From Rhizobiaceae bacterium (lineage in GTDB: Bacteria; Pseudomonadota; Alphaproteobacteria; Rhizobiales; Rhizobiaceae), in NCBI GenBank assembly GCA_019635775.1, contig JAHBYU010000024.1:1-39744 (forward strand): DNA of 39,744 bases. The letters run 5' to 3'. Shown here one piece after another: positions 22,751 to 32,674 of this stretch (position 1 is its first letter; each line of letters starts with the position of its first letter). The position numbers and the translations under genes were made by a program. The notes beneath the pieces are model-generated. The model had not been told where the DNA came from. It ran no database searches and was given only the letters and a program-made list of their open reading frames with translations.

Positions 22751-24391
22751 TTGAAAAAGCTCTTTCCCATCATCGCCTTTCTGGCCGTCGCAGCTGCGGG
22801 CGTGGCCACGGCGGTTTTTGCCTATCTCGCAGCCGAGGAGGCCAATCGTATCAAGTTCGAGGCGACGGCGGACGAGGCGGTCAACCGCATCGAGAGCCGT
22901 CTGGTCGTCTATCTCTCGCTGCTGCGTGCCACCGATGCCTACTTCTCGACCCAGGGGGGAGACGTACCCGCCGCTGAATTCAAGGCCTATTTCGACGGGC
23001 TCCACGCCGAAACCAATTTCGAAGGGCTCCGCGGAATAGGGATGCTTGGCATGGCGGGTGCAAAGGACACGGCCTTGCTCGAAAGCACGATTCTTCGCCT
23101 CCAGGGCATTGAGAAAGTTATCAGGCCCGAGCAGACCGAAAACGAGTGGCGCGCACCGATCGTTCTGTACGAGCCATTGGTGCGGCCCGAAATGTCGGGC
23201 CTTGGATTCGACATGTTCTCCGACCCGGAAAGACGCGAAACGATATTGTCCGCCATCGACACCGACGAACCGCGGGCTACAGGCAAGCTCCTGCTTGGCC
23301 AGGCGACCGGCGGGGAGATATGGCCGGGCTTTCTGATCTTTTCCGCAGTTGACGACAAGCGGCGCATGCCCGGCCAACCCACGAGTATTCTTTTTGCGTC
23401 GTTCCGCGCGGACGATCTTTTCCGCATGATTTTGGATAAATTCCCGGCTCTGCCTGTACATGCCCAGGTTTTCGACGGGGAAATCGCTCCGCAAAACCTT
23501 CTTTTCAAGGCGGAGAAGCCTGCCTACGGAACTCTGGTGACGACAAGGCAGTTGCTCGTTGCCGGGCGGCCCTGGACCATCGAGTTCCGTCCAACAGCCG
23601 AGTTCACAAGGCCTACCTCGCAGACGGTGCCCATATTGCTGGGTGTCTTCGGATTGCTGCTTGCTGTCGCGATCGCCCTGCTTCAGCGGTATCAGGCCCG
23701 GGCCTATGAGGCGATGTCACAGTTGCAGGAAAACGCCGAGAAGAGCCTTCTGGACAAGGACCTCATGCTTCAGGAGATGAAGCACCGCATAAAGAATTCC
23801 ATTGCGCGCGTCCTGGCGATTGCGCGGCAGACGGCGGCGGGATCGGCGGACATGGCCGAGTTCTCTGAATCGTTCTCGGCGCGGCTTCAGGCCATGGCGG
23901 CCTCCCAGGATATGCTGACGCGCTCGCGCTGGCAGAAGGCGGAAATGGGAGAGCTTCTGCGCATCGAGCTTTCCCAGGCTTTCGGGAAGGAGCTTCCGGA
24001 AGGCATGCTCAACGGCCCGAAAGTTTTGATGTCGGAAACGGCGACGCAGGCGCTCGGGCTGACCTTCCACGAACTGGCCACCAATGCCCTGAAATACGGA
24101 GAGGTTGCCCGCTCGCCGGACACGCTCAAGGTTACCTGGGGTCTGCGCCAGGGGGGCAGCGTGCTCTGGCTCTCGTGGCGCGAAACCGGGACCGGCTCCG
24201 TCGGACAACCTGAGAAATCAGGCTTCGGCACAAAGCTGATCGACATGAACATAACGCGCGAACTGAACGGTAGGATAAAGCGGACCTTCAGCGAGGACGG
24301 TCTGCAAATCGAGATCCTGATCCCGCTCGATGAGGAAAAGACCGCAGGCGCAAAGGCAAAAAACAGGGCCCGCCCGCCCAAGGAGGCGTGA
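22751..24391 (+). CDS. CHASE-domain HWE-family sensor histidine kinase
   Basis: Membrane sensor kinase, 546 residues. Membrane helices at about 5-27 and 292-312 enclose a periplasmic CHASE-type ligand domain (roughly 40-285, with FEGLRGIGMLG and GFDMFSDPERR). The cytoplasmic kinase has the phospho-accepting His345 (EMKHRIKNS), the N-box HELATNALKYG (His440, Asn445) and the WxE of HWE kinases (LSWRETG, Trp476, Glu478). The start is a TTG at 22751 immediately before the first membrane helix, with no better start and a weak ribosome-binding site. CHASE-HWE kinases in rhizobia often feed PhyR. Its closeness to the phyR locus (about 2.3 kb) supports that, but the partner is inferred. Confidence 0.88.
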   Translation: MKKLFPIIAFLAVAAAGVATAVFAYLAAEEANRIKFEATADEAVNRIESRLVVYLSLLRATDAYFSTQGGDVPAAEFKAYFDGLHAETNFEGLRGIGMLGMAGAKDTALLESTILRLQGIEKVIRPEQTENEWRAPIVLYEPLVRPEMSGLGFDMFSDPERRETILSAIDTDEPRATGKLLLGQATGGEIWPGFLIFSAVDDKRRMPGQPTSILFASFRADDLFRMILDKFPALPVHAQVFDGEIAPQNLLFKAEKPAYGTLVTTRQLLVAGRPWTIEFRPTAEFTRPTSQTVPILLGVFGLLLAVAIALLQRYQARAYEAMSQLQENAEKSLLDKDLMLQEMKHRIKNSIARVLAIARQTAAGSADMAEFSESFSARLQAMAASQDMLTRSRWQKAEMGELLRIELSQAFGKELPEGMLNGPKVLMSETATQALGLTFHELATNALKYGEVARSPDTLKVTWGLRQGGSVLWLSWRETGTGSVGQPEKSGFGTKLIDMNITRELNGRIKRTFSEDGLQIEILIPLDEEKTAGAKAKNRARPPKEA

Positions 24392-24761: not shown

Positions 24762-25088
24762 TCATTCTTGGCTAAGATAGTCTTTTTCGCGGCCATCCAT
24801 TCTCGCCGCAACTAGGATTATCGGTACCTCGATCGTGGCGATCAAGGTGCCGTCCGGGTTCATCTGCCACAAAAGTTCAGCACCCTCCTCCTCTACTGCC
24901 GGATCGACCTGTACGCACTGGCTGAAAACCCTCGGATATCTGGCAACGACGCGTCCGATAGCCGGGGAGATGGTCGCTTCGCATTCCTCGGCGGTCTCGA
25001 ATATCGTGATCGGCGTGGCGATCTCCCTGCACTGGGAAAGATCGCCTGAGCAGCCGACCAGCAACAACACCGCTGCTATATGTTCCAT
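24762..25088 (-). CDS. Uncharacterised exported protein, 108 residues
   Basis: Starts MEHIAAVLLLVGCSGDLSQC. The short hydrophobic start with a VGCS box could be a lipoprotein signal or a membrane anchor. The mature part has further Cys residues (CREI, EECEAT, SQCVQVD) that might form disulfides in the periplasm, and a beta-rich end (PDGTLIATIEVP). GTG 25097 and ATG 25088 are both possible; ATG follows CGGGGTGA. A perfect EcfG-type promoter lies 42 bp upstream, so it should belong to the general stress regulon. No function known to me. Confidence 0.72.
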   Translation of the reverse strand: MEHIAAVLLLVGCSGDLSQCREIATPITIFETAEECEATISPAIGRVVARYPRVFSQCVQVDPAVEEEGAELLWQMNPDGTLIATIEVPIILVAARMDGREKDYLSQE

Positions 25089-25129
25089 GACGGTCACCCC
25101 GGTTATGAGACAACGGCTTCCGGATTGAT

Positions 25130-25154
25130 AACGTGGGGTGCCCGCGCTGGTTCC
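25130..25154 (-). promoter_or_regulatory. EcfG-type promoter for the 108-residue exported protein
   Basis: On minus, GGAAC (25154-25150), 16 bases, CGTT (25133-25130): an exact match to the alphaproteobacterial EcfG consensus. It lies in the short gap after the upstream kinase gene and reads toward the gene starting at 25088. Confidence 0.75.
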
Positions 25155-25163
25155 GTCCCGCGC

Positions 25164-26228
25164 TCATGCCTTTGTGACAGGGCTGCCCGCAGGATCGGTT
25201 GGAATCTCGAAATTCTCGGCGGGCATCTTCAGCGTGTATTCAAGTGCGCCGTCGCCAATCTCCAGTCTCGCGCTTCCGTTCAGCGCGGCCGGGACCACGC
25301 GTTCAAGCGCTGTTCCGCCAAAGCGCTTCTGGCCCTTGTCGAGACTGTCCTTGCGCTTGATCTTTTCGGACCAGACCAGACAAAGGGAATCGTCAGGTTC
25401 CAGGACCGCACGCAATTTGGCATGACCCTCTGGTGTCGAAAGCGCACCATAGCTGATGGAATTCGCGATAAGTTCGTGCAGCGCCAGACCGACATGCAGT
25501 GATGCGTTGGGGTTAAGCCAAAACTTTTCGCCTTCCAGCGTCACGATCGAGGCAGGATCCGTGTTGTAGCGCGCTGCCTGTCCGTAGAGCAGGTCGCCCA
25601 GATCCGCCCCGCGCCAGTTGGACGACGTGACCAGATCCTGAGACGAAGCGAGGGAAAGTAGCCGCCCGCGGAAACCAACAAGGAACTCATCCACCGTAGT
25701 GGAATGTCTTCCGGTCTGCATCGCTATGCTCTGCACAATGGCCAGCATGTTGCGCGAACGATGACTGACCTCACGGAGCAGAACCCGCAGCGTCTGCTCG
25801 CGCTGCTTCTGTTGCGTCGTCTCGACGGCGGTCGTCACGATGCCACGAATCTCGCCCTGCGGTCCGACATCAGCGTCTATCCACAACGCGAACCACTGGC
25901 CGCCGTTCTGGGAGTGCCCGGGAACGCATATTTCGAGGTTTCTGGGTTGATTGTTCCTGCCCGACCCGTTGAGCACCTCAGTCTTGGCAGCAATGACGCT
26001 TTCGGCGGCCGGCGAGGGTAGAAAGTCTACGTCGGAGAGACCGATAACGCTCCCGGTCGACCAGCTTGCCGGAATGTTCTGCGCCCAGGTGACGCGCAGT
26101 TCCGGATTCTGGTAGAGAACCGATACCGCTGTGTTGCGCAATGCGCTAAGCATGCTGAAAGCGACATCGGGGTCGCTTCGTTGGACTGGAAAGGCTCCCT
26201 CGTCCTTTTCGTTCGATCCCGCCGCCAT
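25164..26228 (-). CDS. PAS-domain HWE/HisKA_2-family histidine kinase
   Basis: Soluble sensor kinase, 354 residues from ATG 26228 (a GTG at 26258 would add ten). A PAS domain occupies about residues 30-140 (ENPELR-like start NPELRVTWAQN, ending IVTTAVETTQQKQ). It is followed by the kinase core with phospho-accepting His156 (EVSHRSRN), the HELIANSISYGAL N-box and a VWSEKI segment. No membrane span, so it likely senses a cytoplasmic signal. Kinases of this class next to phyR (PhyK, LovK and relatives) phosphorylate PhyR. The neighbourhood makes that the leading proposal. Neither candidate start has a good ribosome-binding site. Confidence 0.85.
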   Translation of the reverse strand: MAAGSNEKDEGAFPVQRSDPDVAFSMLSALRNTAVSVLYQNPELRVTWAQNIPASWSTGSVIGLSDVDFLPSPAAESVIAAKTEVLNGSGRNNQPRNLEICVPGHSQNGGQWFALWIDADVGPQGEIRGIVTTAVETTQQKQREQTLRVLLREVSHRSRNMLAIVQSIAMQTGRHSTTVDEFLVGFRGRLLSLASSQDLVTSSNWRGADLGDLLYGQAARYNTDPASIVTLEGEKFWLNPNASLHVGLALHELIANSISYGALSTPEGHAKLRAVLEPDDSLCLVWSEKIKRKDSLDKGQKRFGGTALERVVPAALNGSARLEIGDGALEYTLKMPAENFEIPTDPAGSPVTKA

Positions 26229-26380
26229 GATGCTTGGTCTTGAATTGGAGGGCTTCACCGCATGAAGCCGACTGATCCTCTGTTCCTCGAAGGGGACCGC
26301 CGACCAACCCTCCGAAGAAGGCTGGCCGGCGGATTCTGGACGCCGTTTGAGGGGTGCGGCTTCCAGTTACGTTGGCTTGG

Positions 26381-26545
26381 CTATGCTCTGCGGAACAGCC
26401 CGGCCAGAAGCGAAATAACGAGGAAGGCGAGGAACACGAAGAACAGGATCTGCGCGATACCGGCAGACGTTCCCGCGATGCCGCCAAAGCCAAGCGCACC
26501 AGCGATGATGGCTACGACAAGAAAAACAAGGGCCCAGTAAAGCAT
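26381..26545 (-). CDS. DUF1328 small membrane protein
   Basis: A 54-residue protein read by eye from the minus strand: [20 protein letters not shown], then [16 protein letters not shown] and a second hydrophobic helix ending LLAGLFRRA. This is the two-helix DUF1328 (YtjA-like) inner-membrane family, at its normal length. AGGAG is 8 bases before ATG. It has its own exact EcfG promoter upstream and so should be induced in the general stress response. Its molecular role is unknown. Confidence 0.93.
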
Positions 26546-26578
26546 CGGTTCGATCTCCTAAATTCTGCTATGCCTCAA

Positions 26579-26603
26579 AACGAAACGCACCGGAGTTTGT
26601 TCC
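26579..26603 (-). promoter_or_regulatory. EcfG-type promoter for the DUF1328 gene
   Basis: On minus, GGAAC (26603-26599), 16 bases, CGTT (26582-26579), 33 bp before the DUF1328 start. Exact consensus match. Confidence 0.8.
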
Positions 26604-26615
26604 TGACAGGGTAAG

Positions 26616-26644
26616 AAAAAGGCCACCTTGCGGCAGCCTTTTTT
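26616..26644. terminator. Rho-independent terminator after phyR
   Basis: AAAAAGGC and GCCTTTTT arms around a 12-base loop with T runs in both directions. It lies 23 bp beyond the phyR stop on the minus strand and separates phyR from the DUF1328 promoter. Confidence 0.75.
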
Positions 26645-26666
26645 CACGGAATGGTACTGACCGGAC

Positions 26667-27461
26667 TCAGGCTGCCGCCTGTGCCTGCCTGTCGAAGAAA
26701 AGAGCCTGGCTGATCAACGCCTTCACCATCTCGGGATTGAAGGGCTTGGTTACCAGGAATGCCGGCTCGGGACGCTCGCCGGTGAGCAACCGCTCCGGAA
26801 ACGCCGTTATGAAAATCACGGGAACGTGGGCCGAAGCGAGGATCTCGTTGACAGCATCTATGCCCGAGCTGCCGTCGGCGAGCTGGATGTCGGCCAGGAT
26901 CATCTTGGCGCCAGTGCTCCTGAACAGTGTTGTGGCCTCCGCCTGTGTGCGGGCGATGCCGACGACCCTGTGCCCAAGGCTTTCGACCATCTGTTCGATA
27001 TCCATGGCGATAAGGGGTTCATCCTCTATTATAAGGATGTCGGTGGCCACCTGCCGCGAGATTTCCGCGCTTGCCTGAGCAAGCAGGTCCGAGAACTCCT
27101 TCTCGGAAACGTCTAGTACCTCGGCAGCCTGATCGTTGGAAAAGCCCTCGACCGCGACCAGAAGGAACGCCTGGCGCGCCTGCGGCGCTAGAGCGCCGAG
27201 ATTGGCGGCGGCACGCTGTTCCCATGCTGTCGGCGCCTTTTCCTGCGGTATCTTTATGGAGACCGAAGTGAACAATTGCGCGAACAGCCGATAAAGAGCG
27301 ATCCTGTCGGATGATGCCTTCGGAAAGATGCTGGTGTCGGCGATGATTGCTTCAAGCATTGCAGCGACCAGCGCGTCGCCGCTGTGTTGCGATCCGGATA
27401 CCGCGCGCGAGAACCGCCTCAGAAAAGGCAGATGCGGCGCGATCGTTGCGGACAAACTCAT
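26667..27461 (-). CDS. phyR: General stress response regulator PhyR
   Basis: 264-residue anti-anti-sigma response regulator. Residues 1-135 form the sigma-factor-like (EcfG-mimic) domain (MSLSATIAPHLPFLRRFSRA; the sigma-4-like FSNDQAAEVLDVSEKEF). Residues 140-260 form a receiver with acidic Glu146/Asp147, phospho-acceptor Asp191 (ILADIQLADG) and Lys239 (VTKPF). When phosphorylated it binds NepR and releases EcfG. ATG 27461 follows GGGAGAC; the in-frame start at 27539 would include promoter DNA. Divergent from nepR-ecfG, the classic arrangement. Confidence 0.96.
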   Translation of the reverse strand: MSLSATIAPHLPFLRRFSRAVSGSQHSGDALVAAMLEAIIADTSIFPKASSDRIALYRLFAQLFTSVSIKIPQEKAPTAWEQRAAANLGALAPQARQAFLLVAVEGFSNDQAAEVLDVSEKEFSDLLAQASAEISRQVATDILIIEDEPLIAMDIEQMVESLGHRVVGIARTQAEATTLFRSTGAKMILADIQLADGSSGIDAVNEILASAHVPVIFITAFPERLLTGERPEPAFLVTKPFNPEMVKALISQALFFDRQAQAAA

Positions 27462-27540
27462 AAATCCGTCTCCCTCAAATGACGCAGTGGGCAGAAAACC
27501 GGCTTGAACGTCAGCCAAGAGCCGTGCCCCACAACGCATA

Positions 27541-27565
27541 AACGCGGCTTATGAAAGAAGGTTCC
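27541..27565 (-). promoter_or_regulatory. EcfG-type promoter for phyR
   Basis: On minus, GGAAC (27565-27561), 16 bases, CGTT (27544-27541), about 80 bp before the phyR start. Its -35 is only 20 bp from the -35 of the divergent nepR promoter. Autoregulation of phyR by EcfG is established in related bacteria. Confidence 0.85.
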
Positions 27566-27585
27566 AAACTTTTTCATGACCTGAC

Positions 27586-27610
27586 GGAACCAAAGCTCGC
27601 TCTTTGCGTT
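27586..27610 (+). promoter_or_regulatory. EcfG-type promoter for nepR-ecfG
   Basis: GGAAC (27586-27590), 16 bases, CGTT (27607-27610), 118 bp before nepR. Exact consensus match, giving positive feedback on ecfG together with its inhibitor. Confidence 0.85.
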
Positions 27611-27727
27611 TATGGGTCCGGAATGCAACTGCCCCAAGGGGGAGCGCCTGGTTTCATTATCATGGGGAAACCGGTCTCGTGATATGAAGCTGCTCGTAGA
27701 TCTGGGGATAGAAGGGCGAATACCATC

Positions 27728-27925
27728 ATGACGAAAAAAATCAGCGCCGCGCAGGCTACCACCGTGCGCCGGCCGTCGACAGCCGATCCTCTGGGGCCGA
27801 ACTCCGAGATCGGGCGCAAGCTGAAGCAGTATTACGATGATCTGGTGTCCGATGAGATACCGGATCGGTTTGCGTCGCTCCTGGCACAACTCGAAGAAGC
27901 CCGGCCGGCGCAAAAAGAGGATTGA
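27728..27925 (+). CDS. nepR: Anti-sigma factor NepR
   Basis: 65-residue inhibitor of EcfG. The conserved core is visible as GPNSEIGRKLKQYYDDLVSD followed by EIPDRFASLLAQLEE, two helices that clamp the sigma factor. The N-terminus is basic and disordered, as in the family. It is displaced by phosphorylated PhyR. The stop lies 5 bp before the ecfG start, so the inhibitor and its sigma factor are co-translated. Confidence 0.94.
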   Translation: MTKKISAAQATTVRRPSTADPLGPNSEIGRKLKQYYDDLVSDEIPDRFASLLAQLEEARPAQKED

Positions 27926-27930
27926 TCCGC

Positions 27931-28479
27931 ATGGCGGTTTCCCAGGACTTCAAGGCCGATCTGCTCGCGGCCATTCCGAGCCTGCGCGCATTCGCCATGT
28001 CGCTGGCGCAGGGCGGAGACAAGGCAGACGATCTTGTGCAGGAAACGCTCGTCAAGGCGTGGGACAAGCACGAAAGCTTCCAGATGGGCACAAACCTGAA
28101 GGCCTGGCTTTTCACCATCCTTCGCAACGAGTTCTATTCGCAGATGCGCAAGCGCGGCCGCGAGGTGCAGGATTCCGATGGCATCATGACCGGCAGGTTG
28201 GCGGTGCATCCAGCGCAGCACGGGCAACTGGACCTCGACGATTTCAGGACCGCGCTGGAACAATTGCCTGAAGACCAGCGAGAGGCCATCATCCTCATTG
28301 GAGCATCCGGCTTTTCCTATGAGGAGGCCGCCGAGATCTGCGATTGCGCGGTCGGAACAATCAAGAGCCGGGTCAGCCGCGCCCGTACGCGGCTTCAGGA
28401 TATCCTCCAGATTTCAGGTGAGGCGGATTTCGGCCCCGATGCGATAGCGTCGCAGGTCATGGGGTCCAGCGCAGCCTGA
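27931..28479 (+). CDS. ecfG: General stress ECF sigma factor EcfG
   Basis: 182-residue ECF15-group sigma factor. Region 2 includes ADDLVQETLVKAWDKHESF and NLKAWLFTILRNEFY; region 4 includes LPEDQREAIILIGASGFSYE and GTIKSRVSRARTRL. It directs RNA polymerase to GGAAC/CGTT promoters, of which six exact examples occur around it. ATG 27931 has AGAGGA 8 bases upstream; TTG 27922 is in frame but overlaps the nepR stop. The C-terminal extension after region 4 (about 25 residues) is common in rhizobial copies. Confidence 0.95.
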   Translation: MAVSQDFKADLLAAIPSLRAFAMSLAQGGDKADDLVQETLVKAWDKHESFQMGTNLKAWLFTILRNEFYSQMRKRGREVQDSDGIMTGRLAVHPAQHGQLDLDDFRTALEQLPEDQREAIILIGASGFSYEEAAEICDCAVGTIKSRVSRARTRLQDILQISGEADFGPDAIASQVMGSSAA

Positions 28480-28541
28480 CAACGCGAACCGCCGGTATCC
28501 AATTTTTGCGTCAACCCCTTTGACATTCGGGGGCAGGCGTC

Positions 28542-28566
28542 GGAACTTCGCCCTGTGCGCGGCGTT
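28542..28566 (+). promoter_or_regulatory. EcfG-type promoter for the DUF883/holin-like pair
   Basis: GGAAC (28542-28546), 16 bases, CGTT (28563-28566), 29 bp before the DUF883 gene start. Exact consensus match, separate from the ecfG promoter upstream. Confidence 0.8.
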
Positions 28567-28595
28567 GAATGCACACAATTCAAGGAGTGAAAGTC

Positions 28596-28922
28596 ATGGC
28601 CAATGCGGCAACCGGCAAGGCAGGCGATGCAAAGGACTATGCGGAACTTGAGGCCGAGATCAAGCAATTGAAGGCGGAACTCGAAAAGCTCGCGAAAATG
28701 GCGCAGGCGACCGGCGAGCGCGGGTATGGAACTGCCAAGAGAGCCGCTGCGCTCGGCGCCGAACAGTTGATTGCCCAGGGCGAGGCGAAGTTCGAGGACC
28801 TGCGCGCGACCGCCAGGGACATTGAAGATCAGGTCCTGTCGCATGTCCGCGAGAAGCCCGTTACGTCACTTGCGATTGCTGCTGGGGTCGGCTTCCTTTT
28901 TGCTCTGATCGCCCGACGCTGA
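28596..28922 (+). CDS. DUF883 (ElaB/YqjD-like) membrane-anchored protein
   Basis: 108-residue protein with a long charged amphipathic helix region (residues 12-90, coiled-coil-like ELEAEIKQLKAELEKL) and one C-terminal membrane helix (PVTSLAIAAGVGFLFALI), ending in Ala-Arg-Arg. This is the ElaB/YqjD/DUF883 layout; E. coli YqjD tethers ribosomes to the inner membrane in stationary phase. AAGGAGTG precedes ATG 28596. Forms an operon with the next gene under an exact EcfG promoter. Confidence 0.88.
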   Translation: MANAATGKAGDAKDYAELEAEIKQLKAELEKLAKMAQATGERGYGTAKRAAALGAEQLIAQGEAKFEDLRATARDIEDQVLSHVREKPVTSLAIAAGVGFLFALIARR

Positions 28923-28928
28923 TCCTCG

Positions 28929-29381
28929 ATGCTGGCGTCGCTCCTCGCGGGTCTGGCATCGGGTGAAACCGTCGCAGCGCTCAGGCGCGCACGGCGGGCC
29001 GCTTTCGTATACGCTATCGCCGGCGTCACCGCCCTGGCGGGCGTCGGCTTTTTCGTTGGCGCGATTTACATATGGCTCGCCGGGAAGTACGGCAGTCTCC
29101 ATGCAGCCCTCATTCTAGGCGCGGCATTCCTCTTCATCGCGATCATGGTATTGTTGATCGACCGTCTTACTGCGGGTTCACGTTCCCGCAAGGTCGCCCA
29201 ACAGCGCAAGTCCGATCTCGCTGCTGTTGGAGTTGCGGCCAGCCTCGCCATCCTTCCCGGATTGTTGCGCAGGCCGCTTGGGCTCGGCACAGTCCTGTTG
29301 CCTGCGGCCGCAGTCATCGCCTATGCGATCTATCGTGAGAACGTCCGGGCAAAGCCCCGCGACCCGCTCGACGAAGGCTGA
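28929..29381 (+). CDS. Holin-like (YqjE/DUF1469-type) inner-membrane protein
   Basis: 150 residues. Two adjacent membrane helices (about 25-45 and 58-78, AFVYAIAGVTALAGVGFF and HAALILGAAFLFIAIMVLL) are followed by a basic stretch and a further hydrophobic region near 95-130. It resembles YqjE/phage-holin-family proteins that sit next to YqjD-like genes, exactly as here, 6 bp downstream of the DUF883 gene. Probably an envelope-stress protein, not a real phage holin. No phage genes are nearby. Confidence 0.8.
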   Translation: MLASLLAGLASGETVAALRRARRAAFVYAIAGVTALAGVGFFVGAIYIWLAGKYGSLHAALILGAAFLFIAIMVLLIDRLTAGSRSRKVAQQRKSDLAAVGVAASLAILPGLLRRPLGLGTVLLPAAAVIAYAIYRENVRAKPRDPLDEG

Positions 29382-29448
29382 CGTCTTCGCGGAACCACCT
29401 GCCCTCTCGATGCATTGACCGGTCAACATACGCAGTAAGGAACCGATC

Positions 29449-29661
29449 ATGCAGCAAGAAACGCAGAATTTTCGGACACGTGAGGTCCCCGCCACCAGAG
29501 TTCGGCAGGGCAGGTGGGGCGTACAGATTCTGATCGTCCTTATCGTCAGTCTGGCGCTCGCAATGGCTGTCTGGTTTGGCCTGGAGTTCTACGGCCAGTC
29601 GATTGACGCGCAGAGCGTGGACTCACCGGGCGCTACTACGGATGCTGCTCCCAATCCCTGA
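29449..29661 (+). CDS. Small single-span membrane protein, 70 residues
   Basis: Not recognised. Charged N-terminus (MQQETQNFRTREVPATRVRQ), one membrane helix at about 24-46 (ILIVLIVSLALAMAVWFGLE), and a short acidic, Pro/Thr-rich tail likely outside. AAGGAA precedes the ATG. GGAAC at 29391 is followed by TT at the 18-19-base spacing reported for Sinorhizobium RpoE2 promoters, but not by CGTT, so stress control is possible but weakly supported. Ends at a terminator. Confidence 0.72.
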   Translation: MQQETQNFRTREVPATRVRQGRWGVQILIVLIVSLALAMAVWFGLEFYGQSIDAQSVDSPGATTDAAPNP

Positions 29662-29688
29662 CTTCGGTATCATCTCATCCAAATTTCG

Positions 29689-29719
29689 GGCGATCGGTCA
29701 AATTGGCCGGTCGCCTTTT
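29689..29719 (+). terminator. Rho-independent terminator
   Basis: Stem GGCGATCGG and CCGGTCGCC (one G-T pair) with a 9-base loop and TTTT after it, 27 bp past the stop of the 70-residue membrane protein gene. Confidence 0.65.
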
Positions 29720-29868
29720 GCGTTGCAAGTGCCGTTCCTGCCTGGCCGGTGCGGGGGCGGCCTGTGCCGACCCGTGATGGACTGCGGTGCGATTGCGAGG
29801 AGCACGGCGTACGATCTGCTCGTGTCGCGCGAGAGACGGATATCATTGAATCCGAAGCAGGTTTCTTC

Positions 29869-29893
29869 GGAACGGATTCACCGGCATCACGTT
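29869..29893 (+). promoter_or_regulatory. EcfG-type promoter for the PRC-barrel gene
   Basis: GGAAC (29869-29873), 16 bases, CGTT (29890-29893), giving a leader of about 95 bases before ATG 29995. Exact consensus match. The stretch from 29720 to 29868 holds no convincing gene. Confidence 0.8.
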
Positions 29894-29994: not shown

Positions 29995-30942
29995 ATGATC
30001 CGCACTCTGTTTGCCACCACGGCTTTGGCCACTCTGCTTGCTACCGGTGCCTATGCGCAGGAAGCAACCACCCCGGCTCCTGCCACCACCGCGGACCCTG
30101 CCGCTCCGATGACGCAGGAAGCTGCACCGGCTGCCATGAAGGCTGACGGCCATCTTGCCTCGCAGATCATCGGCGAGAACGTCTACAACAGCACGGCCGA
30201 CGACGCCGAGCATATTGGTGATGTCACCGACATCGTCATCGACGCGGAAGGAAACATCCAGGCGGTTGTTGTTGGTGTCGGCGGCTTCCTTGGCCTCGGC
30301 CAGAAGGACGTAGCGGTCGACTTCGCACAGCTCGACTGGGCTGAACGTGACGGCGACCGTTGGCTGGTTGCCGCGATGAGCAAGGAGCAGCTTGAGCAGC
30401 AGGCCGAATTCGATCGCAGTGCGTATGAGCCTGCTCCCGCACAGACAACGGCTGCCAACGATCCCGCAGCCGCTCCGGGTGCAGCGACGGTGCCCGCCGA
30501 TCCGGCAGCATCCGGCCAGATGGCTGAAGGCACGACGGCCGATCCGGCTGCTCCTGCGGCGGATTCCACGATGGACCAGACCACGACCGCCGCTATCGAT
30601 CGTTCGACGCTCACCGAGCTTCCGGCTGACAAGATCACCGCGGACGAACTCATTGGCACGACCGTCTACGGTGCCAATGATGCGGACGTCGGCGACATCG
30701 GCGACGTTGTCCTGACAGCGGACGGCAAGATCGACGCCTATCTGGTTGACGTCGGCGGGTTCCTTGGTCTTGGCGCCAAGCAGGTTGCCCTCGGAAGCGA
30801 CAATCTCGCTTTCATGACCGACGCCGACGGCAACAAGTATCTGTATACCAACTTCACCAAGGAGCAGTTGGAAGCAGCCCCTGCCTACGACAAGGCGACC
30901 TTTGCCGACAAGCGTGACGAACAGCGTCTGCTGGTTCAGTAA
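29995..30942 (+). CDS. Exported protein with two PRC-barrel domains
   Basis: 315 residues with a signal peptide (MIRTLFATTALATLLATGAYA, cut before QE). Two PRC-barrel-like domains, roughly 47-130 and 205-290, share the hallmark VGGFLGLG and the pattern (D)IVIDAEGNIQAVVV / VVLTADGKIDAYLV. An Ala/Pro/Thr-rich linker joins them. Periplasmic PRC-barrel proteins of this kind are abundant in rhizobia and often stress-induced; their partner is not known. ATG 29995 has GAGGAGA upstream; the open frame from 29749 runs through the promoter and is rejected. Confidence 0.88.
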   Translation: MIRTLFATTALATLLATGAYAQEATTPAPATTADPAAPMTQEAAPAAMKADGHLASQIIGENVYNSTADDAEHIGDVTDIVIDAEGNIQAVVVGVGGFLGLGQKDVAVDFAQLDWAERDGDRWLVAAMSKEQLEQQAEFDRSAYEPAPAQTTAANDPAAAPGAATVPADPAASGQMAEGTTADPAAPAADSTMDQTTTAAIDRSTLTELPADKITADELIGTTVYGANDADVGDIGDVVLTADGKIDAYLVDVGGFLGLGAKQVALGSDNLAFMTDADGNKYLYTNFTKEQLEAAPAYDKATFADKRDEQRLLVQ

Positions 30943-31008: not shown

Positions 31009-32568
31009 TCAATAGATGGGCAGCGGTGCGACATCACCCGCCACACCGTCTTCGGTGAGAGCGGAAAGCGCAAGCGACTGGTCAAGATGTTCGGCGCGCC
31101 AGGCAAGCAGCCTTTCGGCAAAGTCCAGCCTCACCGCAGCGCAGGAAGGGTCGCCGGCAAGGTTGTGGAGTTCTTCCGGATCCTCCTTCATATTATAGAG
31201 GAGGGGCGGCAGGCCTCCCCCGAAATGCACGTATTTCCATTCCTCGCCCCTCAGGACGGCCAGGTTGCATTGCTGCGATCTGATCTGGAAATGCCGTTCT
31301 GGTCGTCCTTTTTCGATCGACCGGAAATCGAACTCCCAATGTGCCGCATCGCGCCAGTCGGACGGCTGCCTGCCCTCCAGGAACGGCCTGAGGGATCTGC
31401 CGTCGAGATGGGCTGGCGGGGTTGCTCCAAGCAGTTCCAGCAGGGTCGGCATGATGTCTACGGCTTCGGTGAAATGATCCACGACTGAGCCGGCCGCCTT
31501 TCGCCGTTGGGGATCGCGAACGATCAGCGGGATATGATAGCTCTGGTCGAAGAAGCCGCCCTTGCCGAGCATGAAATGGTCGCCCATCATCTCGGCGTGA
31601 TCGGAGGTCAGGACGATGATCGTGTTGTTCCAGCTTCCGGCGCTACGGAGCGCCGCCCATAGCCGGCCAAGCTGTGCGTCCATTTCAGAGATCATGCCCC
31701 AGTAGATCGCCCGGATCGCTCTGAAATCCACTTCGGTGAAGTTGCGCACCTTGCCCTTCATGCCGGGCAGGAATTTCCCCTTTTTCTGCCGGCTGATCAC
31801 ATAGTCGAGGAAGGGATGCGTCTCCGCCTCGCTCGACCACGACGTGCCGCGCCTGAAGTCCGGGCCGCCAGCCGGATCGTACATGCTGTTGTAGGGCTCC
31901 GGCACGATGAACGGAGGATGTGGGCTGAAGAAGGACAGGTGCGCAAACCATCCTCTTCCAGAGCTTGGATCCTGTTCGCCAAGCCATCTGATGAATTCCC
32001 CGGCCAGGAACGCAGCCGGTGTCTCATCCGCCTTGTACACCGGTGGGTCATTGCTGACCGTCTTTCCCGAGCCACTGGCGGACCGGTGGATATCCGGGAA
32101 GCCCGCCGATGCGTCGACCCCACGTGCGGAAAGCCATGAGAGCCACGGCTTTTGATGCTCCGGCAGCAGCTGCCGGACCGTGAATCCGGGCAATACCCCT
32201 TCATAGGTCCGTAGCACCGGATCATCAGGCGCGTGATAGCGCGGATCGGGGGACACGTCTGTATAGCCGAAGAGTGTCGGGTCGTAGCCAAACGCACGCG
32301 CTGCAAGTGCGATGTTTCCGTGGCGCCTGTCGAGCGGGGTCCCGTTGCGGCACACGCGGTTGTTCATCTGGGAGAGCCCCGTATAGAGGCAGGCGCGCGC
32401 CGGCGAGCACGGCGCTGCTCCGCCATAGTGCCGCCGGAAAAGCACCCCTTCGGTTGCGAGTGCGTCGCTGTTGGGGGTTTTCACCACCGGATGGCCCGCT
32501 ATCGAAAGCGAGTCGCCACGCCATTGGTCGCAGGTGATGATCAGGACGTTGGGTTTTGCACGCGCCAT
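31009..32568 (-). CDS. Sulfatase / phosphonate monoester hydrolase-like enzyme
   Basis: 519-residue member of the alkaline-phosphatase-superfamily sulfatases. The formylglycine motif C-S-P-A-R (Cys54 to Arg58, in APCSPARACLYTG) is intact. Metal ligands include Asp14 (ITCDQWRGDS) and the SDHAEMMGDH segment. The regions LSQMNNRVCRNGTPLD and FGYDPTLFGYTDVSPDPR look like Rhizobium phosphonate/phosphate monoester hydrolase, more than choline- or aryl-sulfatase. No signal peptide, so cytoplasmic. ATG 32568 follows GGGGG; the frame extends upstream to 32772 but without a good start. Substrate unproven. Confidence 0.86.
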   Translation of the reverse strand: MARAKPNVLIITCDQWRGDSLSIAGHPVVKTPNSDALATEGVLFRRHYGGAAPCSPARACLYTGLSQMNNRVCRNGTPLDRRHGNIALAARAFGYDPTLFGYTDVSPDPRYHAPDDPVLRTYEGVLPGFTVRQLLPEHQKPWLSWLSARGVDASAGFPDIHRSASGSGKTVSNDPPVYKADETPAAFLAGEFIRWLGEQDPSSGRGWFAHLSFFSPHPPFIVPEPYNSMYDPAGGPDFRRGTSWSSEAETHPFLDYVISRQKKGKFLPGMKGKVRNFTEVDFRAIRAIYWGMISEMDAQLGRLWAALRSAGSWNNTIIVLTSDHAEMMGDHFMLGKGGFFDQSYHIPLIVRDPQRRKAAGSVVDHFTEAVDIMPTLLELLGATPPAHLDGRSLRPFLEGRQPSDWRDAAHWEFDFRSIEKGRPERHFQIRSQQCNLAVLRGEEWKYVHFGGGLPPLLYNMKEDPEELHNLAGDPSCAAVRLDFAERLLAWRAEHLDQSLALSALTEDGVAGDVAPLPIY

Positions 32569-32657
32569 GAGACCCCCGCGGTTGGTGAGGTCATGGAGCA
32601 GAATTCTCAGGCTGCTTGCAAGGGTTAGAGCGCTGGTGTCCGATAGGTCGACCTTTC

Positions 32658-32674
32658 GTTCACTAATTGAGAAC
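32658..32674. promoter_or_regulatory. Candidate operator in the divergent region
   Basis: Imperfect palindrome GTTC-N9-GAAC (inner positions partly symmetrical, 12 of 17) in the 203-bp region between the sulfatase-like gene (minus) and the VOC gene (plus). A dimeric repressor such as a MarR, TetR or HxlR protein could bind it. No such regulator is encoded nearby. Confidence 0.3.

Follow-up and report, generated by a model that had tools for sequence, protein, structure and literature searches.

A core general-stress-response locus with six predicted EcfG-type promoters in a Rhizobiaceae bacterium close to Mesorhizobium

The motif GGAAC-N16-CGTT, published as the EcfG1 motif of Rhizobium etli (PMC3892343), occurs six times within 4.8 kb of DNA from a Rhizobiaceae bacterium. 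The question raised by this locus is whether the six copies are promoters of a single sigma factor, EcfG, gathered around the genes of that factor and its regulators, phyR and nepR. The analyzed stretch, hereafter the window, comprises 39,744 nucleotides (assembly GCA_019635775.1, contig JAHBYU010000024.1). According to the analysis presented below, the bacterium is close to Mesorhizobium, and the window very probably carries its core locus for the general stress response, in which EcfG would start transcription at all six promoters.

Three of the exact matches are located on the minus strand, namely, upstream of the gene of a small four-cysteine protein (25130..25154), of a DUF1328 gene and probably also the kinase gene that follows it (26579..26603), and of phyR (27541..27565, beginning with GGAACCTTCTTT and T-rich after the -35 box). 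The other three, on the plus strand, precede nepR-ecfG (27586..27610), a DUF883-like operon (28542..28566) and a PRC-barrel gene (29869..29893). No further exact match was found among the 39,744 bases. The preliminary description had listed these positions and strands and had stated that each site faces a gene; both statements are upheld, since all six sites proved to be intergenic, each upstream of its own gene or operon. In 100 dinucleotide shuffles of the window, the mean number of exact matches was 0.31 and the maximum was 2. With a spacer of 15–18 bases and SGTT as the second box, the window contained 12 matches in total (shuffle mean 2.0), the added six being scattered; with one mismatch allowed, 23 matches were detected versus a shuffle mean of 10.3.

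The regulators were identified by profile matches. The product of phyR (26667..27461, minus strand), an anti-anti-sigma response regulator, matches NF006623 (381 bits), PhyR_sigma2 and Response_reg and consists of a sigma-like N-terminus and a receiver domain. Its start is most likely at 27461 rather than at 27539, the start of the longer open reading frame (ORF), because the PhyR family match begins at the former position and the latter precedes the expected transcription start. The gene of the anti-sigma factor NepR (27728..27925, plus strand) exceeds the cut-off of PF18557, its score with NF051865 being 23 of 100 bits; the family has one match only in the whole genome. The co-directional ecfG gene (27931..28479, plus strand; NF009199, 340 bits, above cut-off) starts 5 nt after the nepR stop. 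The preliminary description had named phyR, nepR and ecfG, and all three names are borne out by matches over the Pfam or NCBIfam cut-offs. Both regulator units, phyR and nepR-ecfG, are preceded by sequences matching EcfG promoters. EcfG itself is assigned to the ECF15 type of extracytoplasmic function (ECF) sigma factors on the basis of the NF009199 match and the nepR/phyR context. A single EcfG was found in the genome, the next best sigma match being 30% identical.

Since GGAAC -35 boxes are common to several ECF groups, another ECF sigma factor, similar in its consensus, might be the main one to act at these sites, EcfG control being indirect. The genome contains five further sigma-like stretches that could be considered for this role, but their identity to EcfG within the matching stretch is only 27–32%, and the search showed an internal stop in two of the five. 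In addition, the motif cluster tracks phyR/nepR/ecfG across the family, and exactly this motif is used by EcfG1 of R. etli (PMC3892343). Service by another sigma factor therefore appears very unlikely, and direct recognition by EcfG is preferred.

The clustering of the sites was evaluated against the genome (4.95 Mb, 36 contigs; the window is on contig C17), in which coding and intergenic positions, like those of the six window sites, were called by a custom codon-usage gene caller. The 53 sites with the N16 spacer comprised 33 intergenic and 20 coding ones; with the N17 spacer, seven intergenic and 15 coding sites were found. In 20,000 simulations with random placement of the 53 N16 sites, the best 4.8 kb window never held more than four, and the first-moment bound for six within 4.8 kb was 1.1e-7, a calculation that assumed an intergenic share of 12%. 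The preliminary description had proposed a scan of the full genome and had regarded an equal motif density in unrelated regions as evidence against the island. Such a density was not seen: the island exceeds the rest of the genome approximately 130-fold (6 sites in 4.764 kb versus 47 in about 4.94 Mb).

To what extent the pairing of promoter and gene is conserved was assessed in 80 phyR neighbourhoods of relatives, mostly titled Mesorhizobium. The best PhyR match (92% identical) came from a Mesorhizobium metagenome-assembled genome. Orthologs were taken as tblastn best hits, among which paralogs may enter the counts, and exact N16 (and, in addition, N17) sites were sought within 300 nt upstream. 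N16 sites were found before phyR in 78 (+2 N17) of 80 loci, nepR in 79 (+1) of 80, DUF1328 in 76 (+3) of 79, DUF883 in 74 (+2) of 78 and the four-cysteine gene in 30 (+38) of 72. For the PRC gene, the ortholog starts of which were poorly extrapolated, the count was 10 (+1) of 74 within 300 nt and 72 loci within 600 nt. Genes inside operons were devoid of sites (ecfG 0/79, holin 0/77), a Gly-zipper gene had one in 1/76, and the reversed-letter and complement controls gave three and two matches in all, respectively.

A second set contained one genome per genus, 60 of the 91 above the PhyR cut-off and mostly from the top of the list, as far as the contigs permitted; it partly overlaps the first (e.g., L070/L201, L069/L204), and L204 belongs to the window's own genus. 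Exact N16 or N17 sites were found upstream of DUF1328 in 40/42, phyR in 39/60, DUF883 in 34/47, the four-cysteine gene in 24/34, PRC in 25/38 (within 600 nt) and nepR in 24/46 genera; for the inside-operon genes holin and ecfG, the counts were 0/32 and 6/60, and the reversed-letter control was 0 for every gene. Altogether, these 60 neighbourhoods (990 kb) contained 248 sites versus nine matches of the reversed control; at least one exact N16 site was present in 56 genera, at least three in 42 and at least six in 19. In 20 loci of other families (171 kb; 20 of 28 genomes above the cut-off, the window's own excluded), 36 sites were detected versus three control matches. The conservation of the island, like the identity and sequence of its genes, is a matter of direct observation. 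The island is an old arrangement that keeps the regulators and several targets together and is present in most of the family's sampled genera.

These data also bear on a reading in which EcfG dependence is confined to phyR and nepR-ecfG, and the remaining four matches arose by chance or are decayed. Nine fixed bases do arise by chance, and 20 of the 53 N16 sites in the genome lie inside genes; however, the sites of DUF1328, DUF883, the four-cysteine gene and PRC are kept at the ortholog in most relatives while the reversed control is nearly nil, and this reading deserves hardly any credence. The proposal of the preliminary description, one EcfG regulon around its own regulator, is well supported at the sequence level by the published motif, the conserved promoter–gene pairs and the near absence of control matches. 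Its term "compact" fits the six sites in 4.8 kb of the window but not the relatives, where the island is wider and can comprise as many as ten sites spread across roughly 9 kb. Among the matches listed, many Mesorhizobium loci have 8–10 sites within 6.5 kb of phyR. The M. amorphae genome that includes L117 has 83 sites, ten of which lie inside 9.2 kb.

Several observations weigh against the reading as a core EcfG-driven locus. In the window's own genome, the N16 and N17 motifs together gave 75 matches versus 112 for the reversed-letter control; enrichment of the motif over the whole genome was therefore rejected, and it is the local cluster that stands out. Among the 60 genera, exact N16 sites are absent in four and limited to one or two in 14. 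In the other families the island is thinner, with one or two sites in 14 of the 20 loci, none in three and seven in two. Finally, no phyR/nepR promoter pair at up to one mismatch was found in 11 of the 15 loci L156–L170, those nearest here to Rhizobium by identity ("Rhizobium-like" refers to identity and gene order; four differ).

As for the way in which the island would work, we infer the transcription, the order of firing and the protein functions as follows. Stress would activate the HRXXN kinases, leading to phosphorylation of PhyR, and phosphorylated PhyR would remove NepR from EcfG. The freed EcfG, together with RNA polymerase, would start transcription at the six promoters of the locus. 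The two back-to-back promoters would re-supply PhyR and NepR-EcfG, which would provide both amplification and a built-in brake, and the remaining four would direct the synthesis of small membrane and envelope-type stress proteins and probably of the locus kinase.

The kinase in question is an HWE histidine kinase (25164..26258, minus strand; PF07536) with HRSRN as its HRXXN motif. It is probably co-transcribed with DUF1328; the list of the consensus scan contains no terminator-like site in the interval between the two genes. In the window this kinase gene has no EcfG site of its own, unlike 55 of the 80 relatives (N16; one further locus with N17). The additional site in these relatives (L073–L147) is located approximately 1.2–1.4 kb after the phyR start. 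A CHASE-domain kinase adjoining the island (22751–24388; HRXXN motif HRIKN, HWE_HK match) lacks an exact EcfG site upstream in the window and probably acts as a further input kinase that is not part of the feedback. Its tblastn best hits partly fall on the other kinase, which leaves conservation counts for it with little value.

The phyR promoter differs from the others in the bases that follow its -35 box. In 54 genera, with one mismatch allowed, the conserved elements around it were GGAAC, the next five positions as T (78–93%) and CGTT; apart from an indistinct trace of the nepR boxes further upstream, nothing else in the profile stands out. Of the first five spacer positions, four or more are T in 33 of 37 exact phyR sites versus 14 of 211 other sites, and the T count of the phyR site exceeded the mean of the remaining sites in all 36 genera with both kinds. 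The window follows the same pattern (five T in seven at the phyR site, 0–2 at the other five sites), and in the genome at least four T occur in 3 of 32 other intergenic N16 sites. Judged by its sequence, the phyR promoter is a distinct subclass of predicted EcfG promoters, marked by a T-tract after the -35 box. The T-tract may render it stronger or more sensitive than any of the other promoters.

One candidate explanation, a reciprocal UP-element in which the T-tract serves the polymerase bound at the opposite promoter, was rejected because the T-tract is retained in five phyR promoters without a partner (mean 6.2 of 7) and missing from 14 other sites that are paired (1.2); the T-tract is thus not tied to pairing. 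The phyR promoter of R. etli is recognised by EcfG1 as well as by EcfG2, each of which otherwise favours its own promoter (PMC3892343). This would fit a special promoter but is only a lead, because few of the loci L156–L170 have a recognisable phyR site.

The second peculiarity is the distance between the -35 boxes of the phyR and nepR promoters. In the window the gap is 20 bp (27566..27585), and in the 80 loci it is 8–10 bp in 74 and 18–20 bp in six. Among genera, 59 divergent loci were scanned with up to one mismatch in total, gaps of 0–60 bp being allowed and ties resolved to the smaller gap. A pair was found in 39 genera, the gap being 6–10 bp in 36 and 19 bp in three; gaps of 0–5, 11–18 or 20–60 bp did not occur. 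The gap bases themselves vary freely. The variation in length per base is 1.13 (0.13 without the gaps of 19 bp) versus 3.14 for the phyR leader. Kinship of the genera limits how far the constant gap can be interpreted. The fixed gap was not seen in the 20 other-family loci, and general helical phasing of all EcfG pairs is unsupported, as other pairs within the class and the family show many gaps.

The narrow range of the gap and its low variation relative to the leader are what could be expected if the gap (6–10 bp, in some loci 18–20 bp) and the T-tract reflected a further protein or upstream contacts of the polymerase rather than EcfG alone. The genera are related, however, so inheritance contributes; 20 of the 59 divergent loci lack such a pair, the tie rule favours small gaps, and the T-tract occurs independently of pairing, as described above. 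Contacts of this kind are possible but rather unlikely, and recognition by EcfG alone is retained as the preferred explanation.

The gene behind the 25130 site encodes a conserved protein of ~108 aa (24762..25088, minus strand; alternative start at 25097) beginning with MEHIAAxLLLxGC and containing four invariant cysteines. The 46 aligned sequences, which include those of 45 of the 50 less redundant relatives, have in common M1, A6, C13, C20, C36, C58 and W74. The median ratio of nonsynonymous to synonymous substitution rates (dN/dS) was 0.18 over 782 pairs of 69 ORFs (dS 0.15–1; the pairs are not independent). Judging from these values, the ORF is conserved, protein-coding and under purifying selection. 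Pfam and NCBIfam gave no match at E ≤ 0.01, and a Pfam search with the 46 members returned stray matches only (best 0.0045; DUF7772 in five members). The AlphaFold model has a mean predicted local distance difference test (pLDDT) score of 81; its comparison with PDB folds revealed nothing at E ≤ 0.001, and searching PDB sequences with a profile yielded two matches, with a de novo designed protein in each case (best E 0.028). The preliminary description had labelled the product as exported, which is doubtful because the N-terminus is without K/R and residues 6–13 are modelled as a strand. At the 25130 site, no known RNA was found in Rfam up to E 1, the five hits listed all being below gathering scores. 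In L125 (M. amorphae), the distance between the kinase and this gene exceeds the usual one by ~3 kb (+2.5 to +5.9 kb relative to the start of phyR), and the gene retains its EcfG site.

In the loci L156–L170, four of which lack the gene, an EcfG-like site (up to one mismatch, spacers of 15–18 allowed) was found before it in all 11 loci that have it, with a spacer of 16 in nine, 17 in one and 18 in one. From the end of the site to the aligned start of the query there are 12–17 nt, and the start codon is located about 9 nt further. This arrangement recalls the R. etli transcript ReC64, which, as reported, is 88 nt long, originates at a promoter of EcfG1 downstream of tcrY and gives an additional larger, unexplained band in the Northern blot (PMC3892343; PMC2881028). 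Likewise, the EcfG promoter at 25130–25154 lies directly downstream of the phyR–kinase unit. The R. etli product is called a non-coding RNA, whereas the window and its relatives have a conserved coding ORF at this place. We infer that ReC64 may overlap the four-cysteine gene.

The remaining targets are mostly small proteins. The DUF1328 membrane protein (26381..26545, minus strand) matches PF07043 and NF010228, and the double PRC-barrel protein (29998..30942, plus strand), which has a signal-like N-terminus, matches PF05239 in two stretches, in agreement with the preliminary description. The DUF883/holin-like pair of that description does form an operon behind its site, but the family matches are under the Pfam cut-offs: the DUF883-like gene (28596..28922, plus strand) reaches 23 bits with PF19029 (DUF883_C; cut-off 27), and the second gene (28929..29381, plus strand), of the holin-superfamily-III-like membrane protein, reaches 21.9 bits with PF07332. 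The third gene (29449..29661, plus strand) encodes a small membrane protein without a match in the Pfam search; it has a tblastn match in 46 of the 80 relatives, 39 of which have an EcfG site of its own that is absent from the window. The consensus scan placed a terminator-like hairpin of 13 pairs at the end of this operon (29688..29716, plus strand) and a weak one of five pairs 3' of phyR (26622..26634, minus strand). The scan gave nine sites in the region versus 6.9 (sd 2.8) in shuffles, a total not above chance, and operon ends are therefore tentative. The island is bordered by a sulfatase-like gene (31009–32670) with a tblastn match in 71 of the 80 phyR loci. No exact EcfG site was found upstream of it in the window, and the single upstream match among the 80 loci was rejected as an artefact of sequence slicing.

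Outside the window, 22 of 27 intergenic N16 sites have a called gene within 260 nt. By reading, we take the genes behind these sites to include an RpoH-like sigma factor, SodC, two DUF892-like and two DUF883-like proteins; they look like known EcfG targets. A second cluster of three intergenic EcfG sites in 7.6 kb, away from phyR, is located at G000:C1:421391-428960 (L005–L007), presumably before genes of a DUF892-like, a cytochrome b561-like and unknown proteins. The M. amorphae genome also has second clusters, with five sites (G002:C1:3132513-3139234) and four sites (3088033-3092203). The form GGAACG-N15-CGTTCC is an exact EcfG site on both strands simultaneously; it occurs in the window's genome at G000:C12:296895-296921 (L035 1496-1522), between two divergently called genes, and also in L176 and L180, near the DUF1328 promoter.

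Taken jointly, the details suggest a picture that we put forward tentatively and consider doubtful as a whole. The phyR class of promoters (GGAAC-TTTTT) would fire first at low free EcfG, PhyR rising before the sigma and anti-sigma factors; with the nepR promoter it would form a two-way switch, the distance being fixed or shifted by one helical turn. The family-wide island of up to ten promoters would keep early targets beside the regulators, and ReC64 would be the 5' part of the mRNA of the four-cysteine stress protein.

The locus is a textbook alphaproteobacterial PhyR/NepR/EcfG general-stress locus, mostly known biology with testable new details; a familiar control system is thereby confirmed in one more genome. 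From sequence comparison, what appears to be new is the family-wide island, the phyR T-tract, the constrained gap and the four-cysteine family at the ReC64 position. No description of an island of 6–10 promoters, the T-tract or the fixed gap was found in the literature surveyed, mainly non-subscription texts without supplements. The comparative results raise four questions: is the threshold of the phyR promoter set by the T-tract, are the back-to-back promoters mutually exclusive, what keeps targets beside the regulators family-wide, and is a protein concealed behind a published non-coding RNA? The clustering and the promoter details merit a short comparative note.

Among known systems, the ecfG locus of Sphingomonas melonis (#1442–#1448) likewise combines the regulators with several neighbouring units that depend on EcfG, among them a small secreted protein and nepR2, but other target genes are next to the regulators and the motifs are looser (PMC6599016). 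In the Sinorhizobium meliloti RpoE2 locus (rsiB1, rsiA1-rpoE2), rsiA1 and rsiB1 start downstream of RpoE2-dependent promoters, whereas an RpoH-like promoter precedes SMc01507, which is a neighbour according to its locus tag (PMC3616915). The R. etli locus, with ecfG1 (rpoE4)-nepR and tcrX (phyR)-tcrY, shares with the window the motif, the gene order and an EcfG1-driven transcript beginning just downstream of tcrY (PMC3892343), but the window has DUF1328 between phyR and the kinase. Compared with the general PhyR-NepR-EcfG (ECF15) locus, in which divergent phyR and nepR-ecfG lie behind EcfG promoters with an HRXXN kinase nearby and the autoregulation of both units is published (PMC8103513), the window differs in having four more EcfG-type promoters within 4.8 kb.

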